From: Paracoccaceae bacterium
GTDB taxonomy: Bacteria > Pseudomonadota > Alphaproteobacteria > Rhodobacterales > Rhodobacteraceae
Length of the DNA stretch: 64,000 bases
Reading direction: 5' to 3'
Assembly: GCA_028284705.1 (NCBI GenBank)
Contig: JANQRE010000004.1
Coordinates: 62,001 to 126,000 of the forward strand
In this document: piece by piece, positions 2,852-25,390 of the stretch
Layout: each line of letters opens with the position of its first letter
Position numbering within the stretch: position 1 is the first letter of the stretch
Made by a program: the position numbers and the translations under genes
Notes under the pieces: model-generated
Told to the model about the DNA's origin: nothing
What the model saw: only the letters and a program-made list of their open reading frames with translations
The model's database searches: none

Positions 2852-3241
2852 TCAGAACAGCGCCGCGATCAGCATGATGATGGTCGCGAAAAAGCCCACG
2901 ATCCAGATTAGCGAGCGCCATGGCGCGAGGCCTTGGACATAGGCCGGGATGTAGAGCAGCCGGGCGATCAGGTAGATATGGGCGCAGGCTTGCGTGACCG
3001 GGGTCGACTGATCGGTGAGGGTGATCACGATGGCGGCGATTGCGAACATCACGAGGCCTTCGGTGTGGTTCTTGATCACCCGGTCGAGACGGCCTGAGGC
3101 GATGGGCAGTTTGCCGACATCATCACGGGGACCGAAGACGGTTTTGCGGTCGATCTGCATGTTGCCGACCACAGTAAAAAGCAGGATTTGCGCGACCTGC
3201 AGAAGGGCGGCGAGGGTGAGGATGTAAAGCTCGGTGGTCAT
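2852..3241 (-). CDS. MAPEG-family membrane protein
   Basis: A 129-residue integral membrane protein with about four hydrophobic segments. The MAPEG look is clear: an amino-terminal helix, then NMQIDRKTVFGPRDDVGKL, RLDRVIKNHTEGLVMF, and the pair RLLYIPAYVQGLAPWRSLIW. Families of this type include membrane glutathione transferases and related proteins of unknown substrate. The ATG at 3241 begins MTTELYILTLAALLQ; a longer frame upstream would read through the neighbouring zinc-ribbon gene. It lies 4 bp after that gene, and a paralog sits on its other side. Confidence 0.85.
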   Translation of the reverse strand: MTTELYILTLAALLQVAQILLFTVVGNMQIDRKTVFGPRDDVGKLPIASGRLDRVIKNHTEGLVMFAIAAIVITLTDQSTPVTQACAHIYLIARLLYIPAYVQGLAPWRSLIWIVGFFATIIMLIAALF

Positions 3242-3245
3242 GGGG

Positions 3246-3488
3246 TTACCAGATCCTCCTTTTGGCCAGATCGGCGAGCGTGGCGAATTCGGTCTCGCCA
3301 CAGGTCTTGCAGCTGACATATGGCTCGCCCTCGACCCGCGTCACCTCCCAGAGATCGCCGCCGAACATGGAATAGATCGGCGTGTCGCTGACCCGGCCAC
3401 CGGGCCCGACGGAACTGTCGGCGATGATCGTCTTCTCGGACGTGCCGCATTTCGGGCAGGTGATGGTGGTGCGGTTCGGGATCGCCAT
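3246..3488 (-). CDS. Small zinc-ribbon protein
   Basis: An 80-residue soluble protein with two Cys pairs, CPKC near residue 11 and CKTC near residue 60, which together would hold one zinc ion. Between them is a Gly/Ser-rich segment. No catalytic motif is visible. It is tightly packed between two MAPEG-family genes, with 4-bp gaps on both sides, so the three are almost certainly cotranscribed. It could be an assembly or regulatory partner of the membrane proteins. Its function is not recognised. Confidence 0.8.
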   Translation of the reverse strand: MAIPNRTTITCPKCGTSEKTIIADSSVGPGGRVSDTPIYSMFGGDLWEVTRVEGEPYVSCKTCGETEFATLADLAKRRIW

Positions 3489-3492
3489 GGGA

Positions 3493-3882
3493 TCAGAGCG
3501 CCATGAAGTAGAGCGCGATGGTGGCGAAGAAGCCGATGGTCCAGGCAAGCGAGCGGATGCCGGTGATCTTGAACGCGTAGGCGGGGAGGTAGACGACGCG
3601 GGCGGCGAGGAAGGCTTGGGCGGCGGTGAGGCTGGCGGCGCTCGATTGCTCGCGGAAGGCGATGATCAGCACCGCAGGCGCAAAGAGCGCCATGGCGGTG
3701 ACGGAGTTCGACAGCGCCCGGTCGAGCCGTGCGGCCATGCCCTGTGCCGTCAGCCCTTCGTCGCGGGAGGAGAGCAGGTAGCCCATGCCAAGCTGGTTCA
3801 TGGCGCCGGTGGCCTGCAGGACCAGCGTGATCGCGACGAGCAGGCCGTAAAGGGCGAGGATGGAGAGTTCGTCGGTGAGCAT
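3493..3882 (-). CDS. MAPEG-family membrane protein (paralog)
   Basis: A 129-residue membrane protein, the same length as the MAPEG gene at 2852 and clearly related: ARLDRALSNSVTAMALFAPAVLIIA corresponds to RLDRVIKNHTEG, and ARVVYLPAYAFKITGIRSLAW to RLLYIPAYVQGLAPWRSLIW. Four membrane segments are expected. First gene of a three-gene unit with the zinc-ribbon protein and the other MAPEG gene. The paralogs may form a heteromer, since MAPEG proteins are usually trimers; that is inference. Confidence 0.85.
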   Translation of the reverse strand: MLTDELSILALYGLLVAITLVLQATGAMNQLGMGYLLSSRDEGLTAQGMAARLDRALSNSVTAMALFAPAVLIIAFREQSSAASLTAAQAFLAARVVYLPAYAFKITGIRSLAWTIGFFATIALYFMAL

Positions 3883-3972: not shown

Positions 3973-4481
3973 CTAAAGCTTCCAATTCTTGTCTTTGGTC
4001 GGGCTCTCTGCGACGTAGTGCGCGCGGTTGTAGAGTGCGTGGATGATTGAAACAGCCACCAGATTAAAACGTACCTGAGGTTCTTCGATCGAACTATCTT
4101 CTTTTTCGATTAGCTCCTTGAGCCCAAACGACATGCCCAAGACTCGTGTGCGAATTTTGTCATCATTCATGCTAATGGAGATCGAGTGAGCGAAATCATT
4201 TCGGATTTTCCGAATGAGCGAGATTTCTTCGAATTCCTCACTGTCAATTAGACCAAGCGCACGGCAAATATTGGCTTTGTTGAAGAACGAACTGAGGGCC
4301 GCATTCGGTCCGGAAAAAAGCGCGTCGGTTGCTGGATCACGTAAAAGAAAAGCCCTCAGTATTTCAGCTAGCATTTCGTCAACTTGCGCTGCTGCGACAA
4401 GAACTCTTCCTCGATCGGTCTCAGGATTGCTGGCCTTCAAATACCTAAGCAGTGGTTGATAGTACGGATCCGTAATTTCCA

Positions 4482-4482
<1 letters not shown>
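3973..4482 (-). CDS. MtlR/MltR-like protein
   Basis: A 169-residue helical protein. The segment NAALSSFFNKANICRALGLIDSEEFEEISLIRKIRNDFAHS resembles the mannitol-repressor (MtlR) core, where a helix pair ends in an R-N-x-x-A-H motif. The ATG at 4482 overlaps the odhB stop as TGATG, so translation is probably coupled; a GTG one codon upstream is also possible. Base composition is more AT-rich than the flanking enzymes, suggesting later acquisition. MtlR-type proteins lack an obvious DNA-binding helix, so calling it a transcription factor would be premature. Confidence 0.65.
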
Positions 4483-6062
<1,580 letters not shown>

Positions 6063-6065
6063 GGT

Positions 6066-9023
6066 TTACTTCCCTTCGATGGTCAGCGCGACATTCACCA
6101 GCGCTTCTTGTTCTGCTTTGTGACGAGAGGCCAACCCGGTGGCGGGCGAGGCGGAGGCGGAGCGACCGGCATAGCTGGGCCGTTTATGGGCGGCGTCGAT
6201 GCGGGTCAGGACCCATTCGATATTGGGCTCCATGAAGGTCCAGGCGCCCTGGTTCTTGGGTTCTTCCTGACACCAGACCATCTCGGCACTTTTGAAGCGT
6301 TCCAGTTCCTTCACCGCCGAGATCGCTGGGAAGGGATAGAACTGCTCGAACCGCATGATGTAGATGTCGTCGATGCCGCGGGCGTCGCGTTCCTCCAGCA
6401 GGTCGTAATAGACCTTACCCGAGCACATCACCACGCGTTTGATCTTGTCGTCCGCCACGAGTTTGGTCTCGGAATTGCCGTGCTGGGCGTCATCCCAGAG
6501 CACCCGGTGGAAGGAGGAGCCATTAGTGAATTCCTCCGCCTTCGAGATCGCGAGCTTGTGACGCAGCAGCGATTTCGGCGTCATCATGATGAGCGGTTTG
6601 CGGAAATCGCGGTGGATTTGCCGACGCAGGATGTGGAAGTAGTTCGCGGGGGTCGTGCAGTTCGCCACGATCCAGTTGTCGCCACCGCACATCTGCAGGA
6701 AGCGTTCCAGCCGAGCAGACGAGTGTTCCGGGCCTTGGCCTTCGAAGCCGTGCGGCAGCAGGCAGACAAGGCCCGACATGCGCAGCCATTTGCTCTCGCC
6801 CGAGGAGATGAACTGGTCGAACATGATTTGCGCGCCATTGGCGAAATCGCCGAACTGCGCTTCCCAGAGGGTGAGCGCGTTGGGTTCAGCCAGCGAGTAG
6901 CCGTATTCGAAGCCAAGGACCGCATATTCCGAGAGCATCGAGTCGATGACCTCGTATTGCGCCTGCCCGTCGCGGATGTGGTTAAGCGGGTAGAAGCGTT
7001 CCTCGGTGTTCTGATCCACAAGGCCGGAATGGCGCTGGCTGAACGTGCCGCGGGTGGAGTCCTGGCCCGCAAGGCGGACCTTGTGGCCCTCGGTCAGAAG
7101 CGATCCGAAGGCCAGCGCTTCGCCGGTAGCCCAGTCGAACCCTTCGCCGGTTTCAAACATCTTCTGTTTCGTTTCGAGCAGCCGCCCGACGGTCTTGTGC
7201 AGGGGGAAGCCCTCGGGCACGCGGGTCAGCGCGGCGCCAATCTCGGCCAGCGTCTCATCGGAGATCGCGGTCTTGCCGCGCTCGTAAGTCTCCTCATCAC
7301 GCTTATCGAGATGGGACCATTTGCCATCGAGCCAGTCGGCCTTGTTGGGGCGGTAATCCTTGCCAGCCTCGAACTCTTCATTCAGATGCGCCTGGAAGGC
7401 GGCTTTCATGTCCTCAATCTCGCCTTCGGGGATCAGCCCATCGGCGACGAGGCGTTCGGTATACAGCGTCAGGGTCGTCTTATGACCTTTGATCTTCTTG
7501 TACATGATCGGGTTGGTGAACATCGGCTCATCGCCTTCGTTATGCCCAAACCGGCGATAGCAGATGATGTCGAGCACCACGTCCTTCTTGAATTTCTGGC
7601 GGAACTCGGTGGCGACGCGGGCGGCGTGCACCACGGCTTCGGGGTCGTCGCCGTTCACGTGGAAGATCGGGGCTTCAACCATCAGGGCGATGTCGGTGGG
7701 GTAAGGTGAAGAGCGCGAGAAGTGGGGGGCCGTGGTGAAGCCGATCTGGTTGTTGACCACGATATGCATCGTGCCGCCGGTCTTGTGGCCGCGCAGACCG
7801 GAGAGGCCGAAGCCTTCGGCCACCACGCCCTGACCGGCAAACGCCGCATCGCCATGCAGCAGAATGCCCATCACCGCGGTGCGGTCGGTGTCGTTGAGCT
7901 GGTCCTGCTTGGCGCGCACCTTGCCAAGCACAACCGGGTTCACCGCCTCAAGGTGGGAGGGGTTCGCGGTCAGCGACAGGTGCACATTATTGCCGTCAAA
8001 CTCGCGGTCATGGGAGGCGCCGAGGTGGTATTTCACATCGCCCGAGCCGTCCACATCCTCGGGCTTGAAGCTGCCGCCCTGAAACTCGTTGAAGATCGCC
8101 TTGTAGGGCTTTCTCATCACATTGGCGAGTACCGAGAGGCGGCCCCGGTGCGGCATACCGACGACAATCTCCTGCAGGCCCAATTGCCCGCCGCGTTTGA
8201 TGATCTGCTCCATCGCCGGCACCAGCGCCTCGCCGCCGTCAAGGCCAAAGCGTTTGGTGCCCATGTATTTGACATGGAGGAACTTTTCGAAGCCTTCAGC
8301 TTCAACGAGGCTGTTGAGGATGGCCTTTCGGCCTTCGCGCGTGAAGGCGATTTCCTTGCCCAGACCTTCGATGCGTTCCTTCAGCCAGCCGGCCTGTTCG
8401 GGGTCGGAAATATGCATGTATTGCAGCGCGAAGGTACCGCAATAGGTGCGCTTCACGATGGCGAGGATTTCGCGCATCGAGGCCATTTCCAGGCCGAGAA
8501 CCTTGTCGATGAAAATCGGGCGGTCCATGTCGGCTTCGGTGAAGCCGTAGCTTTTTGGATCAAGCTCGGGATGCGGTGTCTGGTCGCGCATGCCAAGCGG
8601 GTCGAGATCGGCCACCAGATGTCCCCGGATCCGGTAGGCGCGGATGATCATTAGCGCGCGCAGGCTGTCGGTCACGGCACTCTGCACCGCATTGTCGGAG
8701 ACCTCGACGCCCTTTTCCGCTGCCTTGGCCTTGATCTTTTCGGCCGCCTTTTGCGGCTCGGCAGGCCATTGCCCATCCAGCGCGGCGGTAAGGTCGTCAT
8801 TGGGTTGCGGCGGCCAATCGGTGCGCGCCCAGCTTGGACCAGAGGCTTCCTTTTTGACATCCATCTCCGCATCGCCAAGCTGGCGGAAGAACTCCGCCCA
8901 GGCCGCATCGACCGCGTTTGGATCATTGGCGTAGCGGGCATAAAGCTGCTCCACATATTCCGCATTATGCCCCTGCAGGAAGGAGGAGGCATGGAACTGG
9001 TCGTTGGGAGATTGGTCGGTCAT
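6066..9023 (-). CDS. sucA: 2-oxoglutarate dehydrogenase E1
   Basis: The 985-residue thiamine-diphosphate enzyme decarboxylates 2-oxoglutarate and succinylates E2 lipoamide. An amino-terminal FLQGHNAEYVEQLYARY segment contacts the E2 core. Core signatures include VVGMPHRGRLSVLANV, GDVKYHLGAS, SLTANPSHLEAVNPVV, GDAAFAGQG and CYRRFGHNEGDEP. Length agrees with the family. The ATG overlaps the stop of the upstream DUF805 gene by 4 bp, and odhB follows 3 bp after the stop, so the three are one transcript. Confidence 0.97.
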   Translation of the reverse strand: MTDQSPNDQFHASSFLQGHNAEYVEQLYARYANDPNAVDAAWAEFFRQLGDAEMDVKKEASGPSWARTDWPPQPNDDLTAALDGQWPAEPQKAAEKIKAKAAEKGVEVSDNAVQSAVTDSLRALMIIRAYRIRGHLVADLDPLGMRDQTPHPELDPKSYGFTEADMDRPIFIDKVLGLEMASMREILAIVKRTYCGTFALQYMHISDPEQAGWLKERIEGLGKEIAFTREGRKAILNSLVEAEGFEKFLHVKYMGTKRFGLDGGEALVPAMEQIIKRGGQLGLQEIVVGMPHRGRLSVLANVMRKPYKAIFNEFQGGSFKPEDVDGSGDVKYHLGASHDREFDGNNVHLSLTANPSHLEAVNPVVLGKVRAKQDQLNDTDRTAVMGILLHGDAAFAGQGVVAEGFGLSGLRGHKTGGTMHIVVNNQIGFTTAPHFSRSSPYPTDIALMVEAPIFHVNGDDPEAVVHAARVATEFRQKFKKDVVLDIICYRRFGHNEGDEPMFTNPIMYKKIKGHKTTLTLYTERLVADGLIPEGEIEDMKAAFQAHLNEEFEAGKDYRPNKADWLDGKWSHLDKRDEETYERGKTAISDETLAEIGAALTRVPEGFPLHKTVGRLLETKQKMFETGEGFDWATGEALAFGSLLTEGHKVRLAGQDSTRGTFSQRHSGLVDQNTEERFYPLNHIRDGQAQYEVIDSMLSEYAVLGFEYGYSLAEPNALTLWEAQFGDFANGAQIMFDQFISSGESKWLRMSGLVCLLPHGFEGQGPEHSSARLERFLQMCGGDNWIVANCTTPANYFHILRRQIHRDFRKPLIMMTPKSLLRHKLAISKAEEFTNGSSFHRVLWDDAQHGNSETKLVADDKIKRVVMCSGKVYYDLLEERDARGIDDIYIMRFEQFYPFPAISAVKELERFKSAEMVWCQEEPKNQGAWTFMEPNIEWVLTRIDAAHKRPSYAGRSASASPATGLASRHKAEQEALVNVALTIEGK

Positions 9024-9574
9024 TGGGGGACCTCGTGGCTTTTCGGGGACGGTTTAGGTGGTTGATTTGGTTTGGCAGAAGCCCGCAATAAATTCGGCAA
9101 TGGCCACCCAAAAAGGACGACTAGGCCTATCGCCATGGCGAGGGCACTAGAGGGTGCGTTTTCCGGTTGGTTTGGGTTCAGCAGCACGGAAAGAAACATC
9201 ATCGGGCCGAATAGGAGCAACATGCCAACGCAGACGCACCCGCCTAAGCGGAAAACATCAAAAGTGTCATAAAAGGCAGGCTTTCCAATCCCGTAGAAAA
9301 TCAGAAATGAGACATTCGGAACTTGGGGGAATACATCGCGCTGCCTCCTTCGTGTGGCGCAAACGGCAGCCGGAAAGAAACACATCGCAACAAGGCCCGC
9401 CACAAGATAAGTATTACTGTCATTTTCGTGCATTGCGACCGCTTGAAAGTAACCGCAGATCGCCCCGACACAAAACAAGAACAGCACAAACCACCAAAAC
9501 TCGGGTCGCGTGGCGCGTCCAGACAGGGACCAAGTTCCTGTAAGTCCGGCATTTATGGCTTCAAGTGGCCCCAT
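9020..9574 (-). CDS. DUF805 family membrane protein
   Basis: A 184-residue membrane protein. The opening WSLSGRATRPEFWWFVLFLF matches the DUF805 signature (F/S-G-R-x-x-R-x-E-F-W) followed by the first membrane helix. Three more hydrophobic stretches follow, and the tail is Pro/Lys-rich (NQPPKPSPKSHEVPQ). MGPLEAIN at 9574 is the natural start. Its stop overlaps the sucA start as ATGA, so sucA is translationally coupled to it. The family function is unknown; nothing suggests a role in the dehydrogenase complex apart from position. Confidence 0.8.
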   Translation of the reverse strand: MGPLEAINAGLTGTWSLSGRATRPEFWWFVLFLFCVGAICGYFQAVAMHENDSNTYLVAGLVAMCFFPAAVCATRRRQRDVFPQVPNVSFLIFYGIGKPAFYDTFDVFRLGGCVCVGMLLLFGPMMFLSVLLNPNQPENAPSSALAMAIGLVVLFGWPLPNLLRASAKPNQPPKPSPKSHEVPQ

Positions 9575-9820
9575 CACACGCCTCCCGCCCGGAGGCAACG
9601 ACGGGCCGCGCCACGTCCGGCGCTCCGCGCGTTCGTGCCTGAAACCGTCCACTGGACGCTTTCCGAGGCGGCTCTCACCCTCCCCCCGGAGGGCGCGTTG
9701 GCGATGTCACTTACAGCCCGCGCGACATGGATGCTTTGGGGTACACACATAGAACATATTAAGCGAACGCCCTCCAGGTCGGGCGCGGCCCTCAGCGCAT
9801 ATGTCCGCGCGTTTCGCACT
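9575..9820 (-). other. Non-coding gap upstream of DUF805-sucA-odhB
   Basis: 246 bp between sucD and the DUF805 gene. The plus-strand segment around 9745-9765 is AT-rich (CATATTAAGC) in an otherwise GC-rich gap and is the best place for a promoter driving DUF805-sucA-odhB. No copy of the TGTGATCACA dyad, no strong terminator and no small gene were seen. Confidence 0.4.
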
Positions 9821-10702
9821 TTACCCAATCGCCTCCAGAACCGCTTCACCCAGACCGGCGGGGCTTTCGGAGACCACGATCCCGGCGGAGCGCATGGCTT
9901 CGATCTTGTCCTCGGCGCCACCCTTGCCGCCCGCAACGATTGCGCCGGCATGGCCCATGCGGCGGCCCGGAGGAGCGGTGCGACCGGCGATGAAACCGGC
10001 GGTGGGTTTGGAGCGGCCCTTCTTGGCCTCGTCTTTCAGGAACTGCGCGGCTTCTTCTTCGGCGGAGCCGCCGATCTCACCGATCATAATGATCGACTGG
10101 GTCTCGTCATCGGCGAGGAACCATTCCAGCACGTCGATATGCTCGGTCCCCTTGATCGGGTCGCCGCCGATACCCACGCAGGTCGACTGGCCAAGCCCCA
10201 CATCGGAGGTCTGTTTCACCGCCTCATAGGTCAGCGTGCCGGAGCGCGAGACAACGCCGCAGGAGCCACGCTTGTGGATGTGGCCGGGCATGATGCCGAT
10301 CTTGCAGGCATCCGGCGTGATGACACCGGGGCAGTTGGGGCCGATGAGCGTCGTGTCGGACCCTTCAAGGGCCCGCTTGACACGCATCATGTCGAGCACC
10401 GGAATGCCCTCGGTGATGGCCACGACCAGCGGGATTTCGGCGTCGATCGCCTCAAGGATCGAGTCCGCCGCAAAGGGGGGCGGCACATAGATCACGGAGG
10501 CATTGGCGCCGGTCTTGGCGACAGCCTCATGGCAGGAATTGAAGACCGGCAGGTCGAGATGTTCCTGCCCGCCTTTGCCGGGCGTCACACCGCCGACCAT
10601 CTTGGTGCCATAGGCAATCGCCTGTTCGGTGTGGAACGTGCCTTGGCTGCCGGTAAGGCCCTGACAGATGACTTTTGTGTTTTCGTCGATGAGTACGGCC
10701 AT
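9821..10702 (-). CDS. sucD: Succinate-CoA ligase alpha subunit
   Basis: The 293-residue alpha subunit carries the CoA-binding Rossmann domain ([22 protein letters not shown]) and the phosphorylated histidine in [14 protein letters not shown] (His251). It makes ATP or GTP from succinyl-CoA together with SucC. A GGAG site precedes the ATG. It is separated from sucC by a small exported-protein gene rather than directly adjoining it, which is unusual. A non-coding gap of 246 bp follows before the DUF805-sucA-odhB transcript. Confidence 0.97.
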
Positions 10703-10762
10703 GATGGCTCCTCTGATGTGTTTGCCGCAGGTGCAGCGCTTGTATTGGCGACGGGGGAGCCG

Positions 10763-11224
10763 TCAGAATTTCCCTTGATGCACGGCCTCGCCGACCGGGA
10801 CGGAGACGGGGCGGATGCCGCTGACGGTCTTGTCAGGCACATTCGCGGTGGAGTTTTCGATTTCGAGCGGCGCACCGGCGCTCGGGCCATTGATCACCGA
10901 AACCGTCAGAACGCGACGCTCGACGATATCAACCTCGCAGAGCATCAGCGCCGAAAGCGCACCGACGACGTTGAGTGTGCCGTCATCGTTGGCCGTGCCG
11001 AAGCGTTGCGTGATCGGCGGGCGGGCATAGACGGCATAGCGTTCCAGATTGGTCTCGCGTAGCTCAAATGGCTGCGCTTCGATGGGCTCAAAGACGAAGC
11101 CCTGGCGTTCCAGCGTGACCGGAACGTTGCGCGCGAAGAATGCGCAAGCCTCTTCCGCTGTGGGTTCGGCCTGAGCCGACACCGCCCAAATGCTGGACAT
11201 GAATGCCAATGAAAACAAACGCAT
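10763..11224 (-). CDS. Small exported protein between sucC and sucD
   Basis: A 153-residue protein with a signal peptide ([19 protein letters not shown], cleavage expected after AQA). The mature part has two cysteines spaced far apart (EEACAFF and LMLCEVD), which could form a disulfide. No known domain is recognised. The ATG at 11224 was chosen because the signal peptide starts there; a TTG three codons earlier would overlap sucC. It lies between sucC and sucD in the same direction, so it should be expressed with them. Likely periplasmic. Confidence 0.75.
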
Positions 11225-11229
11225 AGACC

Positions 11230-12423
11230 TCAACCCTTCACGGCGGCGACGATCTTCTCGGCACCGTCCTTCAGGTCATCGGCGGCGATACAATCCACAT
11301 CCGAATTGTTGATGATCGCCTTGCCTTCTTCGACATTCGTGCCTTCGAGCCGCACCACAAGCGGTACTTGCAAGCCCACTTCCTTCACGGCGGAGACGAC
11401 GCCCTCGGCGATGACGTCGCAGCGCATGATGCCGCCGAAGATGTTGACCAGAATGCCCTTCACCTGCGGATCGGAGGTGATGATCTTGAAGGCCTCGGTC
11501 ACCTTCTCCTTCGTGGCCCCGCCGCCGACATCGAGGAAGTTGGCGGGCTCCGAACCATAGAGCTTGATGATGTCCATCGTGGCCATCGCAAGGCCCGCAC
11601 CGTTCACCATGCAGCCGATCTCGCCATCGAGCGCGATGTAATTCAGGTCGTATTTCGAGGCGGCAAGCTCCTTGGGGTCTTCCTCGGTCGTGTCGCGCAG
11701 CTCGGCGATGTCGGGGTGGCGGTAGACCGCATTGCCGTCGAACCCCATCTTCGCGTCGAGACATTTCAGATCGCCCTCATCGGTGACGATCAGCGGGTTG
11801 ATCTCCAGCATCTCCATGTCTTTTTCGATGAAGAGCTTGTAGAGCGTGCCCATCAGCCCGACGCATTGCTTCACCTGCTTGCCGGTCAGGCCCAGCATGA
11901 AGGCGATGCGGCGCCCGTGATAGGCTTGGTAGCCGGTGGCGGGATCGACGGAGAAGGAAAGTATTTTCTCGGGCGTTTTCTCGGCGACTTCCTCGATATC
12001 CATGCCACCCTCGGTGGAGCAGACATAAGAGACGCGGGAGGTTTGCCGGTCGACCAGCAGGGCGAGATACATCTCGCTTTCGATGCCGGAGCCATCCTCA
12101 ATATAGATGCGATTGACTTGTTTCCCGGCCTCGCCGGTCTGCTTGGTCACGAGAGTCCGGCCAAGCATTTTCTTGGCCTCGGTGGCGGCCTCTTCCACGG
12201 ATTTGGCCAGGCGCACACCGCCAGCATCGCCCGCGTCGGCCTCTTTGAAGGTGCCCTTGCCGCGCCCACCTGCGTGAATTTGCGCTTTCACCACCCAAAG
12301 CGGGCCATCGAGTTCACCTGCGGCGGTTTTGGCTTCTTCGGAGCGCAACACGACGCGGCCATCGGAGACCGGAGCGCCATAGCTGCGCAGCAGCGCCTTG
12401 GCCTGGTATTCGTGGATGTTCAT
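11230..12423 (-). CDS. sucC: Succinate-CoA ligase beta subunit
   Basis: 397 residues, the usual length. The amino-terminal ATP-grasp fold starts [16 protein letters not shown] and has [15 protein letters not shown]. The carboxy-terminal CoA-ligase domain carries [19 protein letters not shown] and [16 protein letters not shown]. With SucD it performs substrate-level phosphorylation in the TCA cycle. Two TGTGATCAC dyads 102-133 bp upstream of its start mark a probable regulated promoter in the gap towards mdh. Confidence 0.97.
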
Positions 12424-18949: not shown

Positions 18950-19621
18950 ATGCGACTGATTTCCGCCGCCGTTTTTCTGGCGCTGACCCTGCCAACCCGA
19001 CTGCTCGCCTGCGATCTGGCCCTGATCCTGGCTGTGGATGTCTCGGGCTCCGTCGACAGTCGCGAATATCGCATCCAGATGGAGGGGCTGGCGGAAGCTT
19101 TGCGCGACGGTGCGATCTCCGAGGCGCTGGTGCGTGCCGAGGCCCATGTCATGCTGATGCAGTGGACGGGGTCTTCCCGCCAGCGGGTCTCGGTTCCCTG
19201 GACGCCGGTTGTCGATTTTGACATCGCCGACGCGCTGGCCGACCGGGTCGCGGCGACCCCCCGGGTCTGGCGCAACTTTTCCACGGCGATTGGCGAGGCG
19301 CTTCTGGTGGCACAGGAGGCTTTCACGGATGTCCCAAATTGCGAACGCCGCGTCATCGATGTTTCCGGCGACGGGTTCTCCAACGAAGGTGTGGAGCCGG
19401 ACGATGTGCGACTGACCCTTGGCGCTGGTGGGACCACCATCAACGCCTTGGTCATCGAAGAAAACGAGACCGGCCTCACGGAGTATTTCCGCACCAATGT
19501 GATCGTGGGCGCAGGCTCTTTCGCGGTGACGGCGGCTACGTTTGACGAATATCCCAAGCGGATTCGCCAGAAGCTTCTGCGGGAGATCACCGAGCAGGTC
19601 TCCTCCTTCGATTTGCCCTGA
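18950..19621 (+). CDS. DUF1194 exported von Willebrand factor A protein
   Basis: A 223-residue protein with a signal peptide (MRLISAAVFLALTLPTRLLA) followed by CDLALILAVDVSGSVDSREY, whose DxSxS is the metal-ion-dependent adhesion site of a vWA fold. CERRVIDVSGDGFSNEG forms the later metal loop. This matches DUF1194. It is periplasmic or secreted and of unknown partner. It ends at 19621, a few bases before the sdhC operator pair. Confidence 0.88.
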   Translation: MRLISAAVFLALTLPTRLLACDLALILAVDVSGSVDSREYRIQMEGLAEALRDGAISEALVRAEAHVMLMQWTGSSRQRVSVPWTPVVDFDIADALADRVAATPRVWRNFSTAIGEALLVAQEAFTDVPNCERRVIDVSGDGFSNEGVEPDDVRLTLGAGGTTINALVIEENETGLTEYFRTNVIVGAGSFAVTAATFDEYPKRIRQKLLREITEQVSSFDLP

Positions 19622-19623
19622 TT

Positions 19624-19653
19624 TGTGATCACGCTCCCCATGCCGTGATCACG
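19624..19653. promoter_or_regulatory. Paired TGTGATCAC operators upstream of sdhC
   Basis: TGTGATCACG (19624-19633) and CGTGATCACG (19644-19653) have centres 20 bp apart. A TTGACC hexamer at 19684-19689 may be the -35 element, though no good -10 follows. The layout copies the pair before sucC and suggests the same activator. Confidence 0.6.
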
Positions 19654-19780
19654 ATTTCCCGAATTTTCCGCAATTTGCGCCAATTGACCGCGCCTGTTTC
19701 CGCTCACATGGCGTGACACTCCCAAAATGCCGGGGCATAAAGGCATGAAAAATAACGGTAGCCAACGCCAAGGAGGCCGC

Positions 19781-20164
19781 ATGGCCGATGTTAACAGGGG
19801 CAATCGCCCGCTTAGCCCACATCTGCAGATTTATCGCCCGCAACTGACGTCCATGACGTCGATCCTGACCCGGATCACCGGCAACGCGCTTCTTGTGGCG
19901 GCGCTTTTGATCGTCTGGTGGTTTCTGGCGGCGAGTTACTCCGAGGAGTACTTCAACCTCGCCAATGCTGTGATCACGTCCTGGTTCGGCGATCTGGTGA
20001 TGTTCCTCTCGCTCTGGGCGATCTGGTACCACCTGCTCGCGGGGCTGCGGCATCTCTGGTGGGATTCAGGCCGCGGGCTGGAGTTGGAAGAGGCCGAGAA
20101 ACTCGGCTGGGTCGTTATCGGCGGATCGGTGGTTCTGACCATCCTGACCGCCTTGGCTTTGTGA
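19781..20164 (+). CDS. sdhC: Succinate dehydrogenase cytochrome b556 subunit
   Basis: A 127-residue membrane anchor with three helices. RPLSPHLQIYRPQLTSMTSILTRITG is the quinone-site opening, and YHLLAGLRHLWWDSG contains the heme-b-ligating His in the H-x-x-x-G-x-R-H-x-x-x-D pattern. An AGGAGG site precedes ATG 19781; an earlier in-frame ATG is less likely. First gene of sdhCDAB. A further TGTGATCACG copy lies inside the gene at 19969-19978. Confidence 0.95.
   Translation: MADVNRGNRPLSPHLQIYRPQLTSMTSILTRITGNALLVAALLIVWWFLAASYSEEYFNLANAVITSWFGDLVMFLSLWAIWYHLLAGLRHLWWDSGRGLELEEAEKLGWVVIGGSVVLTILTALAL
19969..19978. promoter_or_regulatory. Intragenic TGTGATCACG copy in sdhC
   Basis: An exact match to the operator core inside the sdhC coding sequence, about 320 bp after the upstream pair. 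It encodes Val-Ile-Thr in a membrane helix, so it may be chance or a secondary site. Confidence 0.3.
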
Positions 20165-20174
20165 GGAGCGCGCC

Positions 20175-20546
20175 ATGGCTTATCTGACCGACCGCAAACG
20201 CGCCGAGGGCATGGGCTCCGCCAAATCGGGGACGGAGCATCACTGGAACATGACGGTGTCCTCCGCGGCCTTGGTGATCCTGGTGCCGCTCTTCATCTTC
20301 ACCTTCGGGCGGATTTTGGGATCGTCTCACGCCGAAGTGCTCGCCTATTTCGCGCGGCCTTTCCCGGCGATCGTCGCAGGCCTCACCATCATCGTCGGTT
20401 TTTTGCATTTCAAAGGCGGTGTGCAGGTCCTGATCGAGGATTACGTGCACGGGACGCTTCGCAAACCGCTGATCATCGCGATGATCTGTCTTTCCTACGC
20501 TGCGGCGGGCACCGGGCTTTTCGCCATCGCCCGCATCGCGCTTTGA
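20175..20546 (+). CDS. sdhD: Succinate dehydrogenase membrane anchor subunit
   Basis: A 123-residue anchor with three helices. The start MAYLTDRKRAEGMGSAKSGTEHHWNMTVSSAALVILVPLF matches alphaproteobacterial SdhD. HFKGGVQVLIEDYVHG in the middle carries the D-Y pair that lines the quinone site. It starts 10 bp after sdhC with a GGAG-type site and is followed by sdhA. Confidence 0.93.
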   Translation: MAYLTDRKRAEGMGSAKSGTEHHWNMTVSSAALVILVPLFIFTFGRILGSSHAEVLAYFARPFPAIVAGLTIIVGFLHFKGGVQVLIEDYVHGTLRKPLIIAMICLSYAAAGTGLFAIARIAL

Positions 20547-20558
20547 TCGGAGGCCGAT

Positions 20559-22367
20559 ATGGCTGCTGAATACGAATATGAGACCCACGAATATGACGTG
20601 GTTGTGGTTGGCGCCGGTGGGGCTGGTCTTCGGGCGACGCTTGGCATGGCGGAGCAGGGGCTGCGCACGGCTTGCGTGACGAAGGTGTTCCCGACGCGCT
20701 CCCACACGGTGGCGGCGCAAGGGGGCATTGCGGCATCTCTGGGGAATATGGGCCCCGACAGTTGGCAGTGGCATATGTATGACACGGTCAAGGGCTCGGA
20801 TTGGCTGGGCGACACGGACGCGATGGAATATCTCGCCCGCGAAGCGCCCAAGGCGGTTTATGAACTAGAACATTACGGCGTGCCGTTTTCCCGCACGGAA
20901 GAAGGCAAGATCTACCAACGCCCCTTCGGTGGTCACACGACTGAGTTCGGTGAAGGCCCGCCCGTCCAGCGCACCTGCGCGGCAGCGGACCGGACCGGTC
21001 ACGCGATCCTGCACACGCTTTATGGTCAAAGCCTCAAGCAACAGGCTGAATTCTACATCGAATATTTCGCCATCGATCTGATCATGTCCGAGGACGGGCA
21101 ATGCACTGGCGTTCTCTGCTGGAAGCTCGATGACGGCACGCTGCATCTCTTCTCCGCTAAGATGGTCGTACTGGCCACGGGTGGCTATGGCCGGGCCTAT
21201 TTCTCGGCCACTTCGGCCCACACTTGCACCGGAGATGGCGGGGGGATGATTGCCCGCGCAGGGTTGCCGCTTCAGGACATGGAATTCGTGCAGTTCCACC
21301 CCACTGGTATCTACGGTGCGGGTTGCCTCATCACCGAAGGTGCACGGGGTGAAGGCGGTTACCTCACCAATTCCGAAGGCGAGCGCTTCATGGAGCGTTA
21401 TGCGCCGACCTACAAAGACCTCGCCTCCCGCGACGTGGTCTCGCGCTGCATGACGCTGGAAATCCGCGAAGGGCGCGGTGTCGGCGAGAATGGCGATCAC
21501 ATCCACCTTCACCTCAACCACCTGCCACCAGAGACATTGGCGCAGCGTTTGCCCGGTATCTCGGAAAGCGCGCGCATCTTCGCAGGCGTGGACCTCACCA
21601 AAGAGCCGATCCCGGTTCTGCCCACCGTGCACTACAACATGGGCGGCATCCCGACGAATTACTGGGGCGAGGTGCTGTCACCGACGAAATCCGATCCCGA
21701 CCGCGTCGCACCGGGCCTGATGGCCGTGGGCGAGGCCGGCTGTGCCTCCGTGCATGGTGCGAACCGACTGGGTTCAAACTCCCTGATCGACCTCGTGGTC
21801 TTCGGTCGCGCCGCGGCGATCCGCGCAGGGCAGATCGTCGATGCAGAAGCGCCGAATCCGCCGGTCAACCCGATCTCAGTCCAACGGGCCCTGGATCGCT
21901 TCGACAATCTCCGCCACGCAAAAGGCGCTGTACCAACCGCGGCGTTGCGTCTGGAAATGCAGCAGACCATGCAGGCCGATGCCGCTGTCTTCCGTACCGA
22001 TAAGACCCTCGCTGAGGGCGTGAAGAAAATGGACGGCGTCGCGGGCAAGATGGAGGACCTCGAAGTCACCGACCGCAGCCTCGTCTGGAACTCCGATCTG
22101 ATGGAGACGCTGGAACTCGCCAACCTCATGCCCAACGCGGTCGCCACCATCGTCGCCGCCGAGGCCCGCAAGGAAAGCCGCGGCGCGCATGCGCATGAGG
22201 ACTACCCCGACCGCGACGACAAAAACTGGCGCAAGCACTCGCTGACCTGGTTCAAGGGCATCAAACCCAAGCTCGACTATCGTGGCGTGCATCTCGATCC
22301 GCTCACCTCGCACAACGAGGGCGGCATCGATCTCAAAAAAATCGCCCCGAAAGCACGGGTCTATTGA
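20559..22367 (+). CDS. sdhA: Succinate dehydrogenase flavoprotein subunit
   Basis: 602 residues, full length. Covalent FAD is expected at the His of [16 protein letters not shown]. The FAD Rossmann loop is [20 protein letters not shown]. Substrate-site signatures are [23 protein letters not shown] and [22 protein letters not shown]. It oxidises succinate to fumarate and passes electrons to SdhB. Its TGA stop overlaps the start of the first lipoprotein gene (TGATG), so sdhB is not adjacent. Confidence 0.98.
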
Positions 22368-22687
22368 TGCGGAGTGGCGTTCTGACAGGAATCGTCTTTC
22401 TGGCCGGTTGCGCAACCGCGCCGTCCTCCGATCTGGAAGCCCCACAAGACGAGCCGACGCAAGCTGCAGAGCAGGCGCTGCGTGTCATGGCCGAGGCGCA
22501 GTTTCCGGGGCAGGATACAGGCGCGATTGCAAATTGCGGTATCCTCAACACCACAACGGAGGAGTTGCAGACCTTGGCGGGTTCGGCCACCGAAACCGAT
22601 GCATTCCTCGCGCGGGCAACCGCGGCGGGTGTGTTGTCCAAGCCCGAAACCCGCGCCTGCATGGCCTCAAACGGGATCGTCCTATGA
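22367..22687 (+). CDS. Small lipoprotein 1 of sdhA-sdhB insert
   Basis: A 106-residue lipoprotein: signal [15 protein letters not shown], with the lipidated Cys at residue 15. The mature part has AEQALRVMAEAQFPGQD, then NCGIL, and ends RACMASNGIVL, giving two extra cysteines. Three of the following genes share this plan. The start overlaps the sdhA stop and the end overlaps the next start by ATGA. Function unknown. Confidence 0.8.
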   Translation: MRSGVLTGIVFLAGCATAPSSDLEAPQDEPTQAAEQALRVMAEAQFPGQDTGAIANCGILNTTTEELQTLAGSATETDAFLARATAAGVLSKPETRACMASNGIVL

Positions 22688-22986
22688 GACCGCTCCTTGC
22701 GATAGCCATTTTGGCGTTAGCAGCCTGTGCCACTCCGTACCCGCCTATACAGACGGAATCACCAACTGTAACGGCTGAACAGGTTCTTATGTTTGTCGCA
22801 GAAGTTGAATATCCCGAAAGCGATGTTTGGGCATTTGCGGCATGTGGCGGCACTAGTCTATCGAGCGAGGAACGTTCGCGCTTGGAAGCCGTAAATACCG
22901 AGACAGAGGCGCGTGTTCTCGCTTTGGACGTAATCAATAAGCCGGATACAATTATGTGTCTTTCTAAGGAAGGGATCACATTATGA
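22684..22986 (+). CDS. Small lipoprotein 2 of sdhA-sdhB insert
   Basis: A 100-residue lipoprotein: MRPLLAIAILALAAC, with lipidated Cys15. Mature part: TAEQVLMFVAEVEYPESD, then ACGGT, ending IMCLSKEGITL, the same two-cysteine plan as lipoproteins 1, 3 and 5 but quite diverged. Base composition is more AT-rich than its neighbours. ATGA overlaps occur on both sides. Confidence 0.78.
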   Translation: MRPLLAIAILALAACATPYPPIQTESPTVTAEQVLMFVAEVEYPESDVWAFAACGGTSLSSEERSRLEAVNTETEARVLALDVINKPDTIMCLSKEGITL

Positions 22987-23330
22987 GACCGCTCCTCACC
23001 CTATCGATCCTGACCCTCGCCGCTTGCGAACCGACCACGCCGACCGTCTCTGACGTTCCAGGACCGGTTGTCGCCGACACCTATGTGGCACCGACCGACC
23101 CTGTCAGCCGTCAGGCCGAACAAACTCTGCGCGCCATCGCGGCCGCAAAATATCCCGGACAGGACGCCAGGGTGATCGGCAATTGCGGTATCCTCATCGC
23201 CAACGTGACAGAGATCGAAACCCTCGCCTCAGCCGGACCCGGTGTGCCGTCCTCCATCGCCATTGCCGATGCGGTCTTCGCCCGCAAGGAGGCGCAGGCC
23301 TGTATGAGCAGAAACGGGGTCACGTTGTGA
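22983..23330 (+). CDS. Small lipoprotein 3 of sdhA-sdhB insert
   Basis: A 115-residue lipoprotein: MRPLLTLSILTLAAC, lipidated Cys15. The first seven bases of the reading (ATGAGACCG) repeat those of lipoprotein 2, as in a duplication. The mature part has AEQTLRAIAAAKYPGQD, NCGIL and QACMSRNGVTL, closest to lipoprotein 1. It overlaps both neighbours by 4 bp. Confidence 0.8.
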   Translation: MRPLLTLSILTLAACEPTTPTVSDVPGPVVADTYVAPTDPVSRQAEQTLRAIAAAKYPGQDARVIGNCGILIANVTEIETLASAGPGVPSSIAIADAVFARKEAQACMSRNGVTL

Positions 23331-23626
23331 GATCGACCGCGCTCATATTGCTCCTGACGCTCGCGGCCTGCGCCCCGGTCCCGGTGACCCGCGACAAAGC
23401 CGAGGCGCTGTGTCTTGATGAGGTGCGTCAGGCCGATGGCGTCTCCGGCACGGTTGGTGTCGGCGTCGGTACGGGCGGGGCGAAAGCCAAGGGCTCGATC
23501 ACCGTGACCGACCGTGTGTTCAACCCGCAGACGGAAGAGGAATTCCTGGCCGAGTGCATCGACCGCCGGGTCAGCGGCAAACCGGCGCCGACCACTGTGG
23601 GCATCACCATCGGGGCCAAGACATGA
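23327..23626 (+). CDS. Small lipoprotein 4 of sdhA-sdhB insert
   Basis: A 99-residue lipoprotein starting with GTG inside the stop overlap GTGA. The signal RSTALILLLTLAAC places the Cys at residue 15. The mature part differs from the other four: VTRDKAEALCLDEVRQADGVSGTVGVGVGTGG, then ECIDRRVSGKPAPTTVGITIG. It has its own two cysteines and a Gly-rich strand region. No family recognised. Confidence 0.75.
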   Translation: MRSTALILLLTLAACAPVPVTRDKAEALCLDEVRQADGVSGTVGVGVGTGGAKAKGSITVTDRVFNPQTEEEFLAECIDRRVSGKPAPTTVGITIGAKT

Positions 23627-23937
23627 GACACCTGCTCCTCCTGATCCCCTTCGCCCTTGCCGCCTGCGACACGCCGCTTGCCGATCAGATCGCCCGCGAT
23701 CAGGCAAAGAAGGCGGTGAACCCCGTGCTCGCGCAACGCTTCCCCGGCGTGCCGCTGGAGCCCGCCACAAACTGCGTGATCGACAATGCCAGCGCGTCGG
23801 AAATTATCCAACTTGCCAAAGCCGGGACGACGACCGTCAGCCAGACGGATGTCAACCTGATCATCGAGATCGCGACCCGTCCCGACACCATCACATGTCT
23901 GCTTGAGGACGGCATCACGCCGTTCCTGAACGCTTAA
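23623..23937 (+). CDS. Small lipoprotein 5 of sdhA-sdhB insert
   Basis: A 104-residue lipoprotein: MRHLLLLIPFALAAC, lipidated Cys15. The mature part (AKKAVNPVLAQRFPGVPLEPATNCVID, ending ITCLLEDGITPFLNA) again follows the plan of lipoproteins 1-3. It overlaps lipoprotein 4 by ATGA and ends 12 bp before sdhB, whose own site follows, so the series is cotranscribed with sdhB. Confidence 0.8.
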   Translation: MRHLLLLIPFALAACDTPLADQIARDQAKKAVNPVLAQRFPGVPLEPATNCVIDNASASEIIQLAKAGTTTVSQTDVNLIIEIATRPDTITCLLEDGITPFLNA

Positions 23938-23949
23938 GGAGCCTCATCC

Positions 23950-24729
23950 ATGGTTCAACTGACCCTGCCAAAAAACTCCCGCATCCAGACCGGGAAAACC
24001 TGGCCCAAGCCTGAGGGCGCCACGAATGTGCGCAAGTTCCAGATCTATCGCTGGAACCCCGATGACGGGAAGAACCCGCAGGTCGACACCTATTTCGTCG
24101 ATCTCGACAAATGCGGGCCGATGATCCTCGATGCGCTGATCAAGATCAAAAACGAGATCGACCCGACGCTGACCTTCCGCCGCTCCTGCCGCGAAGGCAT
24201 CTGCGGCTCCTGTGCGATGAATATCGACGGGATCAACACGCTGGCTTGCATCTATGGCATGGATGAAATCCAAGGTGATGTGAAGATTTACCCGCTGCCG
24301 CATATGCCGGTGGTCAAGGACCTGATCCCCGATCTCACCCATTTCTACGCCCAGCACGCGTCGATCATGCCGTGGCTGGAAACGAAGACGAACCGTCCGC
24401 AAAAGGAATGGAAGCAGTCGATTGAGGACCGCGAAAAGCTCGACGGGCTTTATGAATGCGTGATGTGTGCGTCCTGCTCCACCTCCTGCCCGTCCTACTG
24501 GTGGAACGGTGACAAATATCTCGGCCCCGCCGCGCTTCTGCACGCCTATCGCTGGATCATCGACAGCCGCGACGAGGCCACGGGCGAACGGCTCGATGAC
24601 CTCGAAGACCCGTTCAAGCTCTACCGCTGCCACACCATCATGAACTGCACGAAGACCTGTCCGAAGGGGCTCAACCCCGCCAAGGCGATTGCGCAGATCA
24701 AGAAGATGATGGTGGAACGGGTGGTTTAG
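23950..24729 (+). CDS. sdhB: Succinate dehydrogenase iron-sulfur subunit
   Basis: 259 residues, full length. The [2Fe-2S] ligands are in [15 protein letters not shown], the [4Fe-4S] and [3Fe-4S] ligands in [16 protein letters not shown] and [21 protein letters not shown]. It carries electrons from SdhA to the quinone site. A GGAG site precedes ATG 23950. It ends the operon and is followed by a large palindromic element. Confidence 0.98.
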
Positions 24730-24732
24730 AGC

Positions 24733-24824
24733 GAAATCGGTTTACCCTGCAACAGGATGCATCGCTTAACGCGTTGAAATCTATGATTTCAGGCAGCGTT
24801 AAGTGATTCAGGTTTACCGATTTC
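24733..24824. repeat. Nested palindromic element after sdhB
   Basis: Outer arms GAAATCGGTTTACC (24733-24746) and GGTTTACCGATTTC (24811-24824) are inverted with two mismatches. Inner arms GCTTAACGC (24764-24772) and GCGTTAAG pair next, and a central TGAAATC/GATTTCA hairpin (24775-24791) closes the structure. It lies between two convergent genes and may be a dispersed palindromic repeat serving as a terminator. Confidence 0.65.
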
Positions 24825-24841
24825 TGCTTTAGACCCGTCTT

Positions 24842-25390
24842 TCAGTCCTCGAAAATCCCGGTCGGCTTGCCGTCGATTGTCTCGGTGTTCTTGCGCCGCC
24901 AATAGTCGCGCACGCCGTCCTCGCCCATCTCCGCGTAGAAGGGTTCCAACTCGACCTCACCCCGCGCCCGCTTGAATTCCATGATCGGCACGCCGGACCC
25001 GCAGGAGGTTTGCACCAGGTCGATCTCCAGGTCGAAAATCTGCCGACTGCCCGCGAGTTTCGGAAACTGGCCGATCATCTCACCCCATGCCGCATCGCGC
25101 GGATGGATGACGCGGGCCTGACCGTAGACCCGCAAGATGCGCGCATCACCTTCGAAGGCGCAGAACATCAAGGTCATGCGCCCAGTGGCCTGCACATGTG
25201 CGGCGGTTTCATTGCCACTGCCACTGAGGCTCAGCCAGGTGATCCGGTTGTCATCGATGATCCGCAGGGTATCGAGGCCCTTGGGCGAGACATTGACCCG
25301 GCCCGTTCGGTCCGCTGTGGCCACGAAGAACATCGGCTGCTCTTCGATGAAACGCTTCAAGGTTCCGTTCAGTTTCGACCCGGTTGCCAT
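24842..25390 (-). CDS. Pyridoxamine 5'-phosphate oxidase-like flavin protein
   Basis: A 182-residue split-barrel protein. The amino part FIEEQPMFFVATADRTGRVNVSPKGLDTLRI and WLSLSGSGNETAAHVQATGRMTLMF is the FMN-binding half of the PNPOx-like fold. EGDARILRVYGQARVI completes the barrel. Such proteins bind FMN, F420 or heme; which one cannot be told. It converges with sdhB. Confidence 0.85.
   Translation of the reverse strand: MATGSKLNGTLKRFIEEQPMFFVATADRTGRVNVSPKGLDTLRIIDDNRITWLSLSGSGNETAAHVQATGRMTLMFCAFEGDARILRVYGQARVIHPRDAAWGEMIGQFPKLAGSRQIFDLEIDLVQTSCGSGVPIMEFKRARGEVELEPFYAEMGEDGVRDYWRRKNTETIDGKPTGIFED

Follow-up and report, generated by a model that had tools for sequence, protein, structure and literature searches.

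The succinate dehydrogenase (SDH) operon of a marine Paracoccaceae bacterium (NCBI GenBank assembly GCA_028284705.1, contig JANQRE010000004.1) carries five small open reading frames (ORFs) for predicted lipoproteins, here termed o1 to o5, which fill 1.58 kb between sdhA and sdhB. The window analysed is a stretch of 64,000 nucleotides (contig positions 62,001 to 126,000), and coordinates below count from its first letter. Judged by their sequences, o1, o2, o3 and o5 are homologous and make up family A, and o4 falls into a different recurrent family, B. The reading favoured here, to which a probability of about one half is given, is that the sdhA-sdhB junction of Rhodobacteraceae is an insertion hot spot mostly for envelope genes, rather than a locus for SDH accessory proteins.

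The gene order on the + strand is sdhC-sdhD-sdhA-(o1-o2-o3-o4-o5)-sdhB, with the five ORFs lying within sdhCDAB on the sdh strand. The features are as follows; sdhC and sdhD are what we take these genes to be from their position and type of sequence, with no family search behind the names.

19781..20164, + strand: sdhC, presumed membrane anchor, 127 codons (ATG at 19781)
20175..20546, + strand: sdhD, presumed membrane anchor, 123 codons
20559..22367, + strand: sdhA, flavoprotein (FAD_binding_2, 1e-125; Succ_DH_flav_C, 2.7e-43)
22367..22687, + strand: o1, predicted lipoprotein of a divergent subfamily of family A, 106 codons, Cys15
22684..22986, + strand: o2, predicted lipoprotein of a divergent subfamily of family A, 100 codons, Cys15, low GC content at third codon positions (GC3)
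22983..23330, + strand: o3, predicted lipoprotein of a divergent subfamily of family A, 115 codons, Cys15
23327..23626, + strand: o4, predicted lipoprotein of family B, GTG start, 99 codons, Cys15
23623..23937, + strand: o5, predicted lipoprotein of the family A core, 104 codons, Cys15
23936..23949, + strand: AAGGAG (23936-23941) spanning the o5 stop, and the remaining spacer before sdhB
23950..24729, + strand: sdhB, iron-sulfur subunit (Fer2_3, 2.7e-33)

The sdhA stop overlaps the o1 start by 1 bp (TGATG), o1/o2, o2/o3, o3/o4 and o4/o5 each overlap by 4 bp (ATGA or GTGA), and 12 bp separate the end of o5 from the start of sdhB. An earlier note, made from the sequence alone, had described five small genes joined to sdhA and to each other by stop/start overlaps, and with overlaps of 1-4 bp this description holds. 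Such overlaps would fit co-transcription of o1-o5 with sdhA and sdhB. Between 22000 and 24100, consensus scanning returned no terminator-like sites on the + strand and three promoter-like matches (shuffle mean 0.7), two of them on the + strand inside the array, which are no evidence of function; an Rfam scan of 19500-25000 gave no match.

Pairwise identity is 38% for o1-o3 (E 1e-20), 39% for o1-o2 (E 1e-16), 28% for o2-o3 (E 6e-11) and 28-29% for o5 against o1, o2 or o3 (E 1e-7 to 1e-8), and these alignments, ranging from E 1e-7 to 1e-20, support the tandem duplication previously suggested for the four. The common plan once ascribed to them is correct as regards homology, but its AEQ and G-[IV]-[TV]-L elements fit o1-o3 only, o5 having RDQ and ending in GITPFLNA; similarly, the repeated ATGAGACCG start is found in o2 and o3 and in no other window ORF. 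No alignment was obtained between o4 and the other four. The four family A members matched the family A profile at E 3.5e-19 to 2.2e-40 and o4 the family B profile at E 3.5e-29, each profile including the sequences concerned. In a search of the organism's own genome (4.04 Mb, 50 contigs), o3 gave matches only at o3, o1 and o2, to which the family A profile added o5 and nothing further.

The sdhA-sdhB gap was surveyed in 120 Rhodobacteraceae genomes (the family in the GTDB sense), each from a different genus. sdhB was detected at E <= 1e-80 in 116, and 114 were scorable, with both gap ends visible, after the dropping of G054 (no sdhA in 14.6 kb) and G028 (contig end). Seventeen genomes had a gap of 9-15 bp, five one of 45-169 bp and 92 one of 291-4422 bp. 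Iterated profiles placed A and/or B in 66 of the 114 gaps, i.e. in 66 of the 92 large ones, leaving 26 large gaps with neither; at a 45-bit score floor, A or B was present in 64/92. The corrected patterns were A in 20 gaps, B in 22, AB in 12, BA in 7, ABA in 2, and AA, BBA and AAABA in 1 each; before correction the counts were A 20, B 20, AB 14, ABA 3 and BA 6, the extra A in L050, L072 and L110 being a 13-15 bit cross-match on a B gene. The window array, AAABA, has the highest copy number among the 114. A second same-family draw added 27 loci, 10 of them without sdhA within 1.5 kb; among the 17 that were scorable, 5 had gaps of 12-33 bp, 11 carried A and/or B (one of these, L229, repeats a genome of the genus set below) and 1 (L232) had neither. 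With starts picked by the rule of this analysis, 43/78 A genes and 35/61 B genes overlap the stop of an upstream sdhA, A or B by 1-4 bp.

Whole-genome profile searches of the same 120 genomes, which scored about 40 first-look candidates per genome and may have missed copies elsewhere, detected A at 48 places in 42 genomes and B at 41 places in 40. All 48 A places and 39 of the 41 B places are no more than 3.5 kb from sdhB, the two remaining B places being pieces of one 481-codon frame in G034, a split and doubtful match. The description of o4 as unrelated therefore applies within the window, but not beyond it, where family B is widespread and beside sdhB. With G034 excluded, A or B occurs in 61/120 genomes (20 with both, 22 with A only, 19 with B only), and the profile search gave no A or B match in 59/120; by inspection, none of the 22 short-gap genomes was among the whole-genome matches. 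At eight of the 41 B places the match crosses a single stop codon, and these are read as cases of a shorter C-terminus. In addition, 78 of 78 named loci with a close family A alignment touch sdhA and/or sdhB, 74 following sdhA and preceding sdhB and 4, where the contig ends, showing one of the two; they include Litoreibacter, Jannaschia, Marivita, Roseinatronobacter, Silicimonas and Falsirhodobacter.

Outside the family the junction is plain in the loci inspected. A class-wide draw of 289 genomes, with at most 16-17 candidates scored per genome, contained A in 3 and B in 2, all from the family of the window. A draw of 115 genomes contained 88 from other families in which sdhB was detected, and the 28 of these with the best scores were inspected. 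Neither A nor B was present in any of the 26 scorable loci, whose gaps measured 11-192 bp; the unscorable ones were L259, which lacked sdhA within 1.5 kb, and L281, at a contig end. Since the other-family gaps are plain and the class-wide matches are all same-family, the lipoprotein insert is, as far as sampled, a trait of Rhodobacteraceae.

A lipobox Cys at residue 15 is present in 5/5 window ORFs, as previously noted, and a lipobox start in 139/141 A/B gene calls across Rhodobacteraceae, a count obtained with a start rule that itself seeks a lipobox and sets some starts wrongly (41 and 62 aa for two A calls); the calls without one are L057 (A) and L141 (B, with a Cys outside the pattern of the rule). 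The proposed envelope location is supported by these lipoboxes in both families. The gap survey suggested by the earlier note also yielded invariant residues, namely C15, A28, C51 and C92 in 39/39 rows of the family A alignment (A1) and C15, C29, A36 and C77 in 35/35 rows of the family B alignment (A2), and o1-o3 retain the family A Cys pair. Because each family has two conserved cysteines beside that of the lipobox, a periplasmic disulfide is the likely state of both. Structure prediction, also suggested in the note, gave an all-helical model for o5 with a predicted local distance difference test score (pLDDT) of 88.3 (helices 18-39, 45-55, 58-69, 74-84 and 87-97), but the family B model was poor, and fold comparison of the family A model found no convincing PDB relative and no link to a solved respiratory subunit. 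No PDB chain matched either profile at E < 0.1.

Domain searches added little. The five window ORFs had no convincing Pfam match, no NCBIfam match reaching the cut-off and no PADLOC match at E <= 0.1, and Pfam matched 0/35 A2 members. CENP-W and DUF7434 each matched 1/39 A1 members and were taken as spurious. Weak PHROGs matches linked o4 to phrog_22293 (0.006) and o3 to phrog_31763 (0.09), both of unknown function. A profile search of a protein collection at E <= 0.001 returned at least 264 A and at least 536 B matches. Database names on family A proteins P0005, P0007, P0026 and P0031 include 'succinate dehydrogenase' and 'Ankyrin repeat protein', neither of which is supported by the family A sequence or model.

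Selection was assessed in the genus, using the organism's own gap and 19 others (sdhB in 20/21 genomes; relatives named Litoreibacter). All 20 gaps contain an A gene of the o5 type and 17 contain B, with B absent from L129 and L133 and reduced to a 15-bit match in L127; further A-type copies are patchy. For the mature part, the median ratio of nonsynonymous to synonymous change (dN/dS) among o5-type genes is 0.15 (20 sequences; 165 of 190 pairs usable); B gives 0.19 (16 sequences; 108 of 120 pairs usable), compared with 0.03 in sdhB and 0.08 in the C-terminal part of sdhA. Within the genus, purifying selection acts on both families, which evolve faster than SDH. The low ratios indicate that both are kept as proteins, and such selection on their orthologues supports o4 and o5 as real genes. 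Divergent A-type copies gave 0.42, with the proportion of synonymous differences (pS) saturated (40 usable of 78 pairs). A likely o1 orthologue was found in 1 of 19 congener gaps (L134, dN/dS 0.14), with more distant A-type copies elsewhere.

On a tree of sdhA+sdhB with 133 rows, the distribution of short gaps (22 rows) required 20 changes, that of A (62 rows) 25 and that of B (58 rows) 23, the short gaps being scattered over the tree. The first-splitting rows under midpoint rooting (L112, L113, L117 and L118) have B and lack A. Outside the genus (38 loci for each family), distances correlated with those of sdhAB at r 0.21 for A and 0.25 for B, values matched or exceeded in 2 and 5 of 300 shuffles, respectively, and sdhA against sdhB gave 0.34; the A/B distances follow sdhAB weakly, which would be compatible with vertical descent. 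The association of A presence with alignment columns gave a mean z of 0.62 for SdhC (79 loci) and 1.08 for SdhD (81 loci), with controls of -0.09 for sdhA and 0.14 for sdhB (114 loci each); for B presence, sdhA was highest (mean z 1.67). Phylogenetic pairing of the SdhC/SdhD association left only 8 pairs on starred branches, which is too few.

Other genes also occupy the junction. From 190 mechanical gap ORFs, 20 long ones were hand-picked for Pfam, of which 11 had a match and 9 had none; such longer genes occur in large gaps free of A and B and, in some genomes, beside A or B. The Pfam-matched occupants of sdhA-sdhB gaps include the following.

L120, L116, L034: polysaccharide pyruvyl transferase
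L073 (two ORFs), L045 (just below cut-off): glycosyltransferase
L121, L091 (below cut-off): sulfotransferase
L137 (a congener), L071: methyltransferase
L064: Wzy_C O-antigen ligase

Envelope-type matches among the non-lipoprotein ORFs imply that the junction takes in other envelope-type genes too. A hand-made pattern also picked out a third group of secreted proteins in the gaps of L036, L050, L055, L068 and L078, with a C-terminal motif of approximately LW.SLT....A..F(I/L)..G.

The suc operon of the same window (9020-12423, - strand) likewise has coupled extra ORFs. The features concerned are these, sucC, sucD, sucA, sucB and lpd being presumed identities.

10763-11233, - strand: 156-codon ORF between sucC and sucD, with a Sec-like signal, overlapping the sucC stop, no Pfam match
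9020-9652, - strand: DUF805 ORF overlapping the sucA start
3973-4485, - strand: ORF between sucB and lpd, overlapping the sucB stop, weak HEPN-like matches below cut-off
3493-3882 and 2852-3319, - strand: two MAPEG-family ORFs between sucB and lpd

Under the favoured reading, the sdhA-sdhB junction of Rhodobacteraceae would be an insertion hot spot in a tricarboxylic acid (TCA) cycle operon that is presumably strongly and steadily expressed. Its occupants would be mostly envelope genes read by translational coupling, with A and B the commonest. Of the two, at least B may be ancestral; both families would have come and gone often, most simply by loss, with family A expanding to four copies in this genome. 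The proteins would be exported, probably lipidated at Cys15, and form small domains, presumably disulfide-stapled, on the periplasmic side of a membrane; they would be made in step with SDH through gene position and need not touch it. A permissive, well-expressed junction is favoured by the repeated absence of A and B, by the unrelated replacements and by the similar extra genes in the suc operon. Position alone is undecisive, because an old insert that was only ever lost would look alike. Alongside the observed arrangement, families, location, selection and plain gaps of other families, we infer the direction of change and the lack of a role in SDH.

Several points weigh on the other side. 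Apart from the doubtful B match in G034, no copy of A or B, extra copies of A included, turned up away from this site in the 120 genomes, and pure parking would lead to some copies elsewhere, unless descent were strictly vertical. Both A-B and B-A orders exist, inside the gap. Near-exclusive position, in-place duplicates and translational overlaps favour a link with SDH. Moreover, the sdhA+sdhB tree is weak (57/130 inner branches below 80) and unable to separate gain from loss, its midpoint root is arbitrary, and L112 and L113 gave a long-branch warning.

The strongest rival, a serious contender although the less probable one, is that SDH has A and B as lipid-anchored accessory proteins in the periplasm: translated beside sdhA and sdhB, they would dock on SdhCD from its periplasmic side and aid assembly, stability or quinone-site function, being dispensable and for that reason often lost. 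As would suit such subunits, A and B are encoded with the SDH genes: every A place, all but the doubtful B places and all 78 named A loci adjoin sdhA or sdhB, additional copies remain within the gap, overlaps of 1-4 bp are frequent, and both families are under purifying selection. Lipidated P29 and ThiX are, moreover, known in the Corynebacterium bcc-aa3 supercomplex (in the part of PMC8795186 consulted). Nevertheless, 59/120 genomes have no A/B match, 22/114 gaps are shorter than 200 bp, and unrelated genes, including polysaccharide genes, occupy the junction in other genomes; variable inserts in both the sdh and suc operons of roseobacters were already reported in 2012 (PMC3305630). The SdhC/SdhD association is also mixed, with too few informative pairs, and no sequence or fold link to a solved respiratory subunit was obtained.

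A bolder form of this idea, which we regard as tentative and slightly less probable still, is that many Rhodobacteraceae have a modified complex II to which accessory proteins of one or two kinds, lipid-anchored and disulfide-stapled, are added on the periplasmic side. With A and B in the sdh operon, and five genes here, these would form an outer-face lipoprotein layer that has been lost many times. Textbooks give SDH four subunits; should an entire bacterial family add lipoproteins to this enzyme, accounts of how complex II is assembled and how respiration makes contact with the envelope would have to include a further layer. If the genes simply reside at the junction, as the hot-spot reading has it, a central metabolic operon has repeatedly gained and lost envelope genes in one family, in contrast with the plain junction in the 26 scorable loci of other families.

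It is unlikely that o1-o3 are decaying, functionless duplicates and that only o4 and o5 matter. The composition of o2 (GC 0.50, GC3 0.45, against GC 0.62-0.67 and GC3 0.69-0.81 in the other four) may reflect recent import, relaxed selection or decay, and the ratio of 0.42 for divergent A-type copies (with its saturated pS) and their patchiness in the genus point the same way. Set against this, none of the five frames is broken and each has a lipobox, the family A Cys pair is retained in o1-o3, dN/dS is 0.14 for the likely o1 orthologue of L134, and two relatives of o3, on short contigs, reach 76-79% identity. Least probable of all, and by some way improbable, is that A and B are surface-variation or phage-blocking cassettes swapped by recombination via the conserved sdhA/sdhB flanks: surface-polysaccharide enzymes do occur at the same junction in other genomes, but the five proteins had no PADLOC match, A and B are under purifying selection (0.15 and 0.19), and their distances track sdhAB weakly, as under slow vertical descent.

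Inserts in this operon have been described before, in part contrary to the statement in the earlier note that no such system was known. Christie-Oleza et al. (2012, PMC3305630) reported that the sdhCDAB operon of Ruegeria pomeroyi holds an inserted gene, SPO_PG016 (93 residues, with two peptides found), which reverse transcription PCR showed to be co-transcribed with SPO0360 and SPO0361; by their account, non-conserved genes in sdhCDAB are common in roseobacters and not in other bacteria, variable inserts in roseobacter sucCD are also described, and the word 'lipoprotein' is absent from the main text. For Cereibacter/Rhodobacter sphaeroides, the part of PMC8920488 consulted gives sdhA as RSP_0976 and sdhB as RSP_0979, with two tag numbers between. 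No papers on SDH lipoproteins of this kind were among those listed from the open-licence PubMed Central literature, which is weak evidence.

The present case resembles the inserts of PMC3305630 in having small genes in the sdh operon and similar inserts in the suc operon. Those inserts were called non-conserved; the present ones form two conserved lipoprotein families found repeatedly in many genera and, with A in 42/120 and B in 40/120 genomes, not poorly conserved between members. The picture is sharper than first described, with two conserved families in one bacterial family at one place. Among lipoproteins of known type, o1 had a weak NCBIfam match to the Lpp/OprI alanine-zipper family (NF040598) at 21 bits, and this identity was rejected against the 43-bit cut-off, the other four not being listed; the family A model (o5) has several helices, unlike the Lpp/OprI family. 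There is also a likeness in kind to P29 and ThiX of the Corynebacterium bcc-aa3 supercomplex, with LpqE as the P29 counterpart (PMC8795186, the part consulted), which are lipid-anchored accessory proteins of a respiratory complex, although they belong to a different complex and phylum.

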